49,921 nucleotides of DNA from Candidatus Colwelliibacteriota bacterium (GTDB lineage: Bacteria; Patescibacteriota; Minisyncoccia; UBA6257; Colwellbacteraceae), in the NCBI GenBank assembly GCA_027448785.1, contig DAIDMW010000004.1, positions 1 to 49,921 on the forward strand, in the 5' to 3' direction. Shown here piece after piece: positions 27,319 through 29,554 of the stretch. The position numbers and the translations under genes were made by a program. A model generated the notes under the pieces. It saw nothing but the letters and a program-made list of their open reading frames with translations, searched no databases and was not told the origin of the DNA. How positions within the stretch are numbered: position 1 is the stretch's first letter; every line of letters starts with the position of its first letter.

Positions 27319-27987
27319 ATGGAAAAAATCTCTCTGACAACAAAAGACAACAAAAGCATATCGGGCAATTTCTTCCCCGCCGAAAACGCCAGGGGGTGGG
27401 TTATTTATCTGCACATGATGCCGTCCACGAAAGAATCTTGGAATAAGCTGGCTGAACGCCTGGCGAGCGACGGCTATGCCGGATTAGCGATAGATCTGAG
27501 AGGACACGGCGAATCCGAGGGTGGTCCGGAAGGGTACAAGTATTTTTCCGACGCCGAACACCAGGCGAGCATTAACGACGTCGAAGCCGCCTGCGATTTT
27601 CTTGTAAAGAGCGGAGCTCAAATCGGCAGAATCCATCTGATCGGCGCTTCGATCGGAGCCAACCTGGCTATCGAATTTCTCGCTAAACACGAGGAAATTC
27701 CTTCGGCGGTCCTTCTTTCCGCGGGCACGAACTATCGTGGAATTTCGGCACTCCGCGCCGCCGAAAAACTGAAGTCCGGGCAAAAAGTTTTATTTCTTAC
27801 CAGCCGCGACGATCTTGGCGCCGACGGATCAAATCCTAAGCAAAACGAGATGGTAATCAGCTTTCTTCCTGGGGGCGTAAAATCGGAGAAAGTGGTCTAC
27901 AACGCTGCCGGACACGGGACGAACATATTCCAAACCAAAGAAGATCCCGACCCCGAAGAGTTGATTGTTTCCTTTATCGAACGTTGA
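27319..27987 (+). CDS. Alpha/beta hydrolase
   Basis: A 222-residue cytoplasmic serine hydrolase of unknown substrate. The order of the fold is clear: oxyanion region YLHMMPSTKESW (about 30-41), AIDLRGHGESEG (about 57-68), nucleophile elbow IGASIGANLA (Ser about 114), acid in LTSRDDLGADG (about 160-170) and the His in NAAGHGTNIF (about 196-205). It resembles dienelactone hydrolase or BAAT-like esterases. A promoter -35 box overlaps its stop codon. Confidence 0.85.
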   Translation: MEKISLTTKDNKSISGNFFPAENARGWVIYLHMMPSTKESWNKLAERLASDGYAGLAIDLRGHGESEGGPEGYKYFSDAEHQASINDVEAACDFLVKSGAQIGRIHLIGASIGANLAIEFLAKHEEIPSAVLLSAGTNYRGISALRAAEKLKSGQKVLFLTSRDDLGADGSNPKQNEMVISFLPGGVKSEKVVYNAAGHGTNIFQTKEDPDPEELIVSFIER

Positions 27988-28011
27988 CAAAGAGACTGAA
28001 AATCATATAAT
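27984..28011 (+). promoter_or_regulatory. Consensus promoter with no ORF behind it
   Basis: TTGACA (27984-27989), 16-base spacer, TATAAT (28006-28011). Both hexamers match the sigma-70 consensus perfectly, the best promoter in the window. The nearest downstream gene, pgk, is about 440 bases away and has its own -10 box. Confidence 0.85.
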
Positions 28012-28017
28012 TATTTT

Positions 28018-28110
28018 TGAGTGAGTGTTTGCAGTCCTGAACGACGATATCGATTTAGGAGTGCCGCTTCCAAGTTATGCCCCCGCTTTCAAGCGGGGGC
28101 ACTTTTATTT
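28018..28110 (+). ncRNA. Candidate small RNA of about 90 nt
   Basis: The predicted transcript starts about 7 bases after TATAAT and ends at the terminator at 28079-28110. It contains a long hairpin: GCA-g-TCCTGAA (28031-28041) pairs with TTTAGGA-g-TGC (28054-28064), with one G/G mismatch and an inner CGA/TCG. A single-stranded linker (CGCTTCCAAGTTAT) separates it from the terminator stem. No start codon with a meaningful ORF lies inside, and I do not recognise it as 6S, SRP or tmRNA. It lies in the 466-base gap between the hydrolase and pgk; the rest of that gap is the two repeats listed next. Confidence 0.6.
28079..28110 (+). terminator. Strong intrinsic terminator
   Basis: A perfect 10-bp stem GCCCCCGCTT/AAGCGGGGGC with a TC loop, then ACTTTTATTTT. 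Confidence 0.88.
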
Positions 28111-28187
28111 TCATCCTGAGCCGCGTCGAAGGATGAAAACATCCTGAGCCGCGTCGAAGGATGAAAACATCCTGAGCCGCGTCGAAG
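28107..28187. repeat. Tandem 28-bp hairpin repeat (CTGAG...TCGAAG type)
   Basis: Two full units and one partial unit of CATCCTGAGCCGCGTCGAAG plus GATGAAAA start at 28112, 28140 and 28168. Each unit with its flanking Ts forms a 10-bp stem TTTTCATCCT/AGGATGAAAA. There are no unique spacers, so this is not CRISPR. The same CTGAG...TCGAAG core occurs in rnpB and near 43.2 kb. Confidence 0.85.
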
Positions 28188-28222
28188 GGTTGCCGTAGCA
28201 CCGCTTGCAGTGCGGGAGTTCA

Positions 28223-28436
28223 TTAGCGCAAAACTAAAAACTAAAAGCGAAAAACAACTGTCAGTAGTTAGGCAAATTCGAAGCTCTAAATCCGAAATCC
28301 TAAACAAATCACAAACTCTAAATGTCAAATACGAAACATAGACTGGTTTGTAATTTGAAGTTTGGTATTTCGAATTTGTTTCGAATTTAAGATTTTCGTT
28401 ATTTTGCATTTTACGTTTTTCATTTTGCACTTCTCT
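28223..28436. repeat. Palindromic GCGCAAA element H
   Basis: GCGCAAAACTAAAAACTAAA, a GC core (CAACTGTCAGTAGTTAGG), an inner repeat identical to element F over CTCTAAATCCGAAATCCTAA and the bases around it, a complementary half (GAAGTTTGGTATTTCGAATT), and a T-rich right arm. Upstream of pgk. Confidence 0.85.
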
Positions 28437-28453
28437 GGTGCTATAATTTCCCT

Positions 28454-29554
28454 ATGGCGCGAACGATTTTAGTCAGACTCAACCTCGATATAAAAGAAAA
28501 GCCGATAGGAGCCGCGCTGCGCTTCAACGCGGCGGTGGACGAACTAAGAAAAATTTCCAAACCGAACAATAAGGTGGTTATATTAAGCCACCGCGGGCGT
28601 CCGCAAGGAGTGGAAAAGAAACTATCATTGCGGCCTTTCGCGCCTCTCCTTTCCAAAGCTTTAAGAAAAAAAGTCGTTTTTTTGGACAACGCCGATTTAA
28701 ACAAGGCTCGGAAAGCGATAGAAGCTGCGCCTAACGGAAGTGTTTTTCTTTTGGAAAACTTGCGCTTCCTGAAAGGGGAAACGGAGAACGATCCGAAGCT
28801 GGGGAGGGCTCTAGCTTCGCTCGGTACCGAATTTATAAGCGATGATTTCGCCACCAGTCATCGCGCCGACTCATCGCTCTCGGCGATTACCGCTTTCCTG
28901 CCTTCGCAGCCGGGAAATCTTTTACGGGAAGAGGTGAAGAATCTTTCTATGGCCATGGGTGATACGAAAAAACCGTTCGTCCTCGTGGTCGGCGGCGCCA
29001 AGGCGAAGGATAAGGTTGGGGTCATTTCGAACCTATTAAAGAAGGCCGACTTGGTTCTGGTGGGGGGAGCGGCGGCCAACACATTCTTGAAGGCCGATGG
29101 TGTTGATGTTAGAGACTCGCTTTATGAGCCGGAGATGGTTGAAACCGCCAAAAAGCTGATGCGCAGCGGAAAGATAGAGACTCCTGAGGATTTCTTATGG
29201 GACGGCAGCAAGATCCTGGACATCGGGCCGAAGACCGCCAAAACCTACGCCGCGTATCTGCGCGGAGCCAGACTGATCGTTTGGAACGGGCCGATGGGGA
29301 TGTTTGAAAGGAAGAAGTTTTCCGCTGGAACTGCCGCGGTCGCGAGGGCTGTGTTGCGAAACGGCCGCGCGAAATCGGTAATCGGTGGTGGAGAAACTGT
29401 GGCGGCGCTCGGATTAAGAAAGCAGGTGCAAAATCCGAAAACCAACATCTTTGTTTCGACCGGGGGAGGAGCGATGCTTGAATTTTTGGCCGGAGAAAGA
29501 ATGGCCGGACTAGAAGCGGTTTTCAAGGATGGGAAAAAGAAAAGAAAAAAATAA
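28454..29554 (+). CDS. pgk: Phosphoglycerate kinase
   Basis: Makes ATP and 3-phosphoglycerate from 1,3-bisphosphoglycerate in glycolysis. The 366 residues are somewhat short (about 390-400 usual), mainly at the N-terminus, where VRLNLDI replaces VRVDFNVP. Clear motifs: LSHRGRPQG (about 43), LLENLRFLKGE (about 99), the hinge VVGGAKAKDKVGV (about 179), VWNGPMGMFE (about 275) and the nucleotide loop GGGETVAAL near the end. A TGC-TATAAT extended -10 lies 6 bases before the ATG (leaderless). rnhA follows after one base. Confidence 0.95.
   Translation: MARTILVRLNLDIKEKPIGAALRFNAAVDELRKISKPNNKVVILSHRGRPQGVEKKLSLRPFAPLLSKALRKKVVFLDNADLNKARKAIEAAPNGSVFLLENLRFLKGETENDPKLGRALASLGTEFISDDFATSHRADSSLSAITAFLPSQPGNLLREEVKNLSMAMGDTKKPFVLVVGGAKAKDKVGVISNLLKKADLVLVGGAAANTFLKADGVDVRDSLYEPEMVETAKKLMRSGKIETPEDFLWDGSKILDIGPKTAKTYAAYLRGARLIVWNGPMGMFERKKFSAGTAAVARAVLRNGRAKSVIGGGETVAALGLRKQVQNPKTNIFVSTGGGAMLEFLAGERMAGLEAVFKDGKKKRKK

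Follow-up and report, generated by a model that had tools for sequence, protein, structure and literature searches.

The question raised by this locus is what lies between the gene for a hydrolase and pgk, where a consensus promoter is followed within about 100 bases by an intrinsic terminator. The initial annotation of the window (the whole stretch of DNA analysed, 49,921 nucleotides) had proposed a stand-alone, unannotated small RNA. This RNA, here called A, was compared with related genomes, and the comparison led to a second conserved element, the leader B, which is complementary to it.

The gene for sRNA A and its conservation

The promoter, hairpin and intrinsic terminator of A together span 27984-28106. 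The initial annotation had described a perfect TTGACA-16-TATAAT as the best promoter of the window, and this is borne out: it is the sole 12/12 sigma-70 match in the whole window, with the runners-up at 10/12. The 5’ end of the transcript is predicted to be G28019 because the conserved GARTGAGTG starts there, 5-9 nt past the -10 element in most relatives. The features of the locus are as follows.

27984 to 27989, plus strand: -35 element TTGACA, overlapping the stop codon of the upstream hydrolase gene
28006 to 28011, plus strand: -10 element TATAAT, with a 16-nt spacer to the -35 element and a distance to the RNA 5’ motif that is kept in relatives
28019 to 28106, plus strand: predicted transcript of sRNA A, about 90 nt (~88 nt with the terminator), based on the covariance model and compensatory stem changes
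28019 to 28027, plus strand: segment a, GAGTGAGTG, the conserved 5’ end and exact complement of CACTCACTC in leader B
28031 to 28044, plus strand: 5’ strand of the main hairpin P2, GCAGTCCTGAACGA, based on folding and compensatory changes
28045 to 28049, plus strand: apical loop CGATA, belonging to the conserved CGAYGATATCG
28050 to 28064, plus strand: 3’ strand of P2, TCGATTTAGGAGTGC, with a bulged A at 28053, based on folding and compensatory changes
28067 to 28077, plus strand: segment b, the linker CTTCCAAGTTA, complement of TAACTTTGGAGG in leader B with one bulge, covarying across clades
28078 to 28106, plus strand: intrinsic terminator with a 10-bp stem and a T-rich tail
28435 to 28453, plus strand: pgk promoter, with its TATAAT at 28442-28447, 6 nt short of the ATG at 28454

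The long hairpin claimed for the transcript is found at 28031-28064, and the folding energy of 28017-28110 is -40.7 kcal/mol compared with -22.4 +/- 3.0 kcal/mol in shuffles (z = -6.1). The terminator (TGCCCCCGCTTTCAAGCGGGGGCA at 28078-28101) has the 10 pairs attributed to it and is followed by CTTTTATTTT. The statement that no ORF lies between promoter and terminator is nearly correct, but a 40-aa GTG ORF (28025-28147) passes through A; indels and stem changes among the relatives of A break any reading frame. Directly 3’ of the terminator, 28112-28190 holds three tandem 28-base copies containing CATCCTGAGCCGCGTCGAAGG, which are missing at the equivalent site of the near-identical relative G001.

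A nucleotide search placed A between the hydrolase gene and pgk in three of four congeners, with traces in two other families. The first covariance model, built from those sequences, had exactly one match per genome in 76 of the 244 genomes of the order, and the refined model found one copy per genome in 90 of the 244. E-values came from short calibrations. Counts of absence, for A and for B, are weak because the large genome searches used strict filters. Members share the 5’ GARTGAGTG, a sequence-variable stem, an apical CGAYGATATCG in most, a variable linker and the terminator. In a 65-sequence alignment, both partners vary in 11 of the 14 stem pairs (109 cells with double changes, 0 of 500 shuffles). 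The stem cells pair in 86.7% of cases compared with 74.8% when shuffled; the alignment was fitted to the model structure and is biased towards it, and sliding the partner by one column lowers pairing to about 38%. The -10 element, which lay outside the covariance model, matches TATAAT at 5-6 of 6 positions in 58 of 86 relatives (8% at random positions), and the -35 element reaches the same level in 31 of 86 (2% at random positions). A strict detector finds the terminator in 79 of the 86 relatives and the remaining seven are visible by eye.

The inner six bases of the apical loop read GATATC in 58, GACGTC in 11 and GATGTC in 2 of the 71 canonical loops, and all three are self-complementary if G-U is counted. 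A kissing palindrome fits 71 of 71 canonical loops and triloop pairing fits 60 of 71. Since the apical loop is lost in about 19 members, it is not essential. Seven genomes (L231, L234-L239) have longer hairpins in its place, and in three others (L057, L062, L076) an additional hairpin separates the 5’ motif from the main stem. A motif scan with a gap of N{8,12}, shorter than the real one of about 14, returned a single true member, on a Candidatus Wolfebacteria contig. Two scans of viral contigs for phage-borne copies gave chance-level matches only.

A is outside every Rfam family, as the initial annotation had supposed for 6S, SRP and tmRNA. Rfam 15 gives nothing at the gathering cut-off over A in a search of the whole window, and at E<=10 the region 27960-28460 has chance matches only. 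Searches at E<=5 on 17 homologous loci, most of them also with B, found nothing at cut-off over A or B. RF00169 (Bacteria_small_SRP) has no match in the own genome. There is no Rfam match to 6S, and the folds of A show short hairpins only; the raiA-motif RNA (ModT) likewise has no match, and A is a single hairpin before a terminator. Searched over all large contigs, which cover nearly all of the own genome, Rfam gives tRNAs, rRNAs and tmRNA, with no RNase P, SRP or 6S RNA at cut-off. No earlier description of A or B was found in the open-licence literature. With its main stem kept by compensatory changes and no match to a known class, A is, on this comparative evidence, a real and previously undescribed small RNA of ultrasmall Patescibacteria.

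The leader element B and its probable pairing with A

Reading the regions downstream of A in most loci gives a second conserved hairpin, B. It is upstream of murB-hpf-secA, and in some lineages of hpf or secA alone or first. Its position in the own genome is as follows.

Contig C2, 5476 to 5528, minus strand: leader element B, directly upstream of murB-hpf-secA

The element consists of an arm of 9-25 bp, a loop reading GAGAG-CACTCAYTC-N-b’-TTGGAGGTCACC-A, and the complementary arm. The loop is about 40 nt long with invariant GCACTC and GGAGGTCACC (consensus from L019-L240), and an invariant GGAGG lies inside B. The stem covaries at 9 of 9 tested pairs (78 cells, 0 of 500 shuffles). The B model matches 170 of the 244 genomes of the order, nearly always once each, which is a wider detection than that of A, and B also occurs in 18 sampled genomes from other orders of the class. 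Under the strict filters 74 of the 244 genomes gave no match to B, and more gave none to A. A -10 element is close upstream of B in many loci; therefore, B is probably the 5’ start of the murB, hpf or secA mRNA. The 3’ arm of B can pair with a strand further downstream. A length of at least 10 bp is reached by this alternative in 38 of 65 leaders (the shuffled mean length is 8.6), and 15 show a T-run; it is absent or not clear in many lineages, the own genus included.

Two explanations considered for the conserved motifs of B were rejected. There is no tRNA gene between A and murB that could be the source of GGAGGTCACC. GGAGGU is not a good candidate for a Shine-Dalgarno sequence, since the 3’ end of the own 16S rRNA is without CCUCC and the start codon is seldom near the motif. 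That 3’ end (contig C1, near 19200) reads GTGGAACAATTAAACT where GGATCACCTCC is expected, and the anti-Shine-Dalgarno CCUCC appears to be missing. Partial duplications of the 5’ arm of B and its CACTCA site are present upstream of the main copy in L052, L076, L233 and L238.

The CACTCAYTC of B is the reverse complement of the A 5’ motif (segment a, GARUGAGUG), and b’ is the reverse complement of the linker b; a’ and b’ are adjacent in the loop. The conservation of GGAGGUCACC in B extends beyond the pairing with A. In the own genome, a would pair with CACTCACTC at C2 5506-5514 on the minus strand, in a predicted 12-bp duplex of -19.4 kcal/mol. Apart from B, the only site of this 9-mer in the 596 kb of the own genome is antisense to A. 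At their longest, runs of complementarity usually measure 9-11 bp for a and 8-13 bp for b; the b pairing of the own genus carries a bulge, and a or b is weak in some lineages. Cognate A-B complementarity is 20.35 for a and 19.96 for b compared with 18.11 and 14.07 in permuted pairs, and the observed values are reached in 0 of 10,000 permutations for a, for b and for both. Because these runs were picked as best matches, fixed anchors that ignore pairing were also tested. The variable positions 1-4 of a then form 162 of 196 possible Watson-Crick pairs (permuted mean 121, maximum 141 in 10,000), and six positions flanking the TTTG/CAAA anchor of b form 187 of 264 (permuted mean 137, maximum 159). 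Position 3 of a is A-T in 27 genomes and G-C in 19, and the 3 exceptions (the own genome, L015 and L020) come from rows whose register was misread.

Both A and B are vertically inherited and the permutation of genomes ignores relatedness; therefore, the paired changes weigh more than the permutation count. One such change is GAATGAGTA/TACTCATTC in L403, and others are GTGTGAGTG/CACTCACAC and AGATGAGTG/CACTCATCT. L050 and L079 have GATTCTTTTTG/CAAAAAGAATC where their relatives read GATTCTGTTTG/CAAACAGAATC. In L068 the pair is TTCTGTTG/CAACAGAA, a matching 1-nt deletion on both sides, and in L041 it is GCGATTTGTA/TACAAATCGC. L404 has a 16-bp b pairing of wholly different sequence. The pairing of A with B is thus strongly supported by comparative evidence. 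A different role had been suggested for part of the linker, namely an alternative fold in which GTGCCGCTT pairs with AAGCGGGGGCAC of the terminator. This fold is possible in the own sequence but is not conserved, and the terminator stems of G003 and G004 are unrelated. The comparison indicates that the linker is conserved for its complementarity to leader B and not for an internal alternative fold. Other partners of the 5’ motif were also considered: complements of a show no enrichment near the gene starts of the own genome, whereas a seed against many mRNA starts would be expected to give one, and neither rRNA nor tmRNA offers a convincing complement.

The complementarity also has predictive value. 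In 22 genomes with B and without a match to the A model, upstream positions were ranked solely by complementarity to a’. The top position had a -10 element of at least 5/6 at the right distance in 12 of 22 genomes (8% expected), and most of those 12 then show a hairpin and terminator. The search upstream of B therefore recovers A genes that were missed by the covariance model, and B can serve as bait for the fast-evolving A where covariance models fail. The B of other orders has GGAGTC or a similar sequence instead of GGAGGTCACC. There too, this search yields promoter-hairpin-terminator genes; their promoters resemble TTGACA/TATAAT, their a is exact or nearly so, and their b matches. Examples are TCTATTTGTC/GACAAATAGA (L413), TACTAAGTC/GACTTAGTA (L415) and CATTTGTCC/GGACAAATG (L419, L421). 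Since the A-B pair is found in other orders, it is older than the order studied here.

A and B share a strand in most lineages, with A 100-400 nt upstream, and the linkage of the two therefore cannot be dismissed as irrelevant. The two are separate in several genomes. In the own genome B is on contig C2 and A is 22 kb inside contig C4; G031 has both on one contig with 115 kb between them; L037 and L225 carry them on opposite strands. The widespread gene order is TIM/SIMPL/hydrolase/GtrA-like - A - murB - hpf - secA, with pgk following A in the family of the window (the own genes are named by Pfam; the GtrA-like and SIMPL names are a reading of the sequences). Most relatives within this family have a perfect TATAAT that precedes the ATG of pgk by 6-8 nt (e.g. 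L004, L003, L016, L038, L040, L066), which makes a leaderless pgk mRNA probable there. Since pgk has its own TATAAT, A is a separate transcription unit.

Proposed mechanism and competing explanations

Taken together, A is very probably a stand-alone, trans-acting, base-pairing sRNA with the murB-hpf(raiA)-secA leader B as its dedicated target, and remodelling of this leader would set expression. As in trans-encoded sRNAs, it is a separate gene with its own promoter and terminator, and it has covarying complementarity to an mRNA leader elsewhere. From the sequence comparison we infer that A is expressed, that A and B bind physically and that regulation exists. A would be transcribed from its own strong promoter, end at its own terminator and fold as one hairpin between two pairing segments, with a at the extreme 5’ end and b between hairpin and terminator. 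These segments would pair with the adjacent a’ and b’ in the B loop, beside or over the invariant GGAGG. Since the order is a-b on A and a’-b’ on B, the geometry of the complex would be that of a bimolecular H-type pseudoknot. It would have two helices of ~9-10 bp each, split between two molecules, and a short, usually A-rich connecting loop. The pairing may remodel the leader, in that the B stem would compete in many lineages with the second hairpin before the gene, sometimes then followed by a T-run. Such remodelling would set the expression of cell-wall, ribosome-hibernation and secretion genes. The likeness to antisense attenuation makes repression slightly the favored direction of regulation.

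Four other explanations were weighed. A could be a cis-acting leader or attenuator of the adjacent downstream gene (pgk here; murB, hpf or secA elsewhere), with one transcript running through the terminator. This would fit the same-strand position upstream of those genes in most genomes, the resemblance of a hairpin plus terminator to a riboswitch, and the order a-b-a’-b’, which is also that of a cis pseudoknot. However, the downstream gene is not constant as it would be for a riboswitch or leader, pgk has its own TATAAT beyond the A terminator, and the complementary site may be on another contig, 115 kb away or on the opposite strand; a cis role is therefore quite improbable. The complementarity is symmetric and does not itself tell which RNA is regulated, so B could be a decoy, a stable released leader fragment which titrates A away from its true targets, either other mRNAs or a protein. 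Although the preservation of GGAGGUCACC beyond the pairing would suit a decoy, B is at the 5’ end of murB, hpf or secA with its own -10 in many genomes, in many lineages the 3’ strand of its stem finds other possible partners ahead of the gene, and complements to a are not in excess near the gene starts of the own genome. The decoy explanation is improbable.

An unrecognized housekeeping RNA may exist in the own genome, since no SRP, RNase P or 6S RNA reaches the Rfam cut-off there, and A could be a strongly divergent form of one of these. It nevertheless has neither the domain IV motif of SRP RNA nor the core of RNase P RNA, it is too short for RNase P or 6S, no supporting Rfam match appears even at E<=10, and none of the three is known to show covarying pairing with the leader of an mRNA; this identity is very improbable. 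It is hardly credible that A encodes a small peptide or is the mere 3’ end of the hydrolase transcript. The GTG ORF does overlap A and the promoter overlaps the hydrolase stop codon, but single-nucleotide length changes in the stem and linker and compensatory non-coding substitutions do not fit a peptide, and in other genomes A sits with its own promoter downstream of unrelated genes.

The trans-acting sRNA with its leader target could form part of a wider system. It is tentatively proposed, with doubt slightly outweighing confidence, that A and B make up a class-wide, Hfq-independent two-RNA switch of Patescibacteria. In this proposal one sRNA would form a bimolecular H-type pseudoknot in the loop of one leader and switch its hairpins, so that peptidoglycan synthesis (murB), ribosome hibernation (hpf/raiA) and secretion (secA) would be adjusted jointly, perhaps as cells pass from host-attached growth to a dormant swarmer state or back. 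Hfq (PF17209) is absent from 21 of 21 genomes (the own genome and 20 relatives) in a search with positive controls, and 20 of the 21 encode a KH protein of the KhpA type.

The Patescibacteria, most of which are uncultivated, form a very large group of ultrasmall bacteria, and searches of open-licence papers gave no account of a small RNA among them that has a conserved target. A 2024 perspective describes the mechanisms of the switch between host-attached and swarmer states in Patescibacteria as completely unknown, with regulation of translation likely to be key (PMC11665869). RaiA, which is normally dispensable, is required for the growth of S. epibionticum (PMC11665869). A and B, both outside Rfam, co-evolve upstream of the hpf/raiA gene set throughout at least one order and also beyond it. 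Since the pairing segments are known exactly, tests with compensatory mutations can be designed at once.

Comparison with known RNA systems

The A-B pair resembles the RNAI/repC leader system of pT181, in which a small RNA pairs with leader loops that are able to form alternative hairpins (PMC3753616). That system works by transcription attenuation; in some lineages a possible alternative hairpin of B looks terminator-like, though not clearly in the own genus. However, the pT181 antisense RNA is encoded opposite its target, whereas A is a separate chromosomal gene with two short complementary segments and is often unlinked.

A also resembles trans-encoded sRNAs, such as those dependent on Hfq, in having its own promoter, one or two short seeds, a stem-loop, an intrinsic terminator and a 5’ leader as target. 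It differs from the Hfq-dependent sRNAs in that the own genome and the 20 relatives are without Hfq, and A has one conserved target and no regulon. Its two seeds are also in an order that would imply a pseudoknot-like complex.

Yfr1 of cyanobacteria is likewise very short and strongly conserved, has an unpaired stretch that is ultraconserved, and pairs with several mRNAs via one central motif. The likeness to A is limited to the short length, the strong conservation and the unpaired stretch; sequence and architecture differ.

The raiA-motif RNA (ModT) of Bacillota and Actinomycetota is a stand-alone structured RNA which is next to raiA in 66% of cases (PMC11706538). Like A, it is conserved and structured and often near raiA, the gene for the HPF/RaiA hibernation factor. 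We know of no leader partner for ModT. Its structure has eight helices and two internal pseudoknots, whereas A has one hairpin and a terminator and belongs to no Rfam family.
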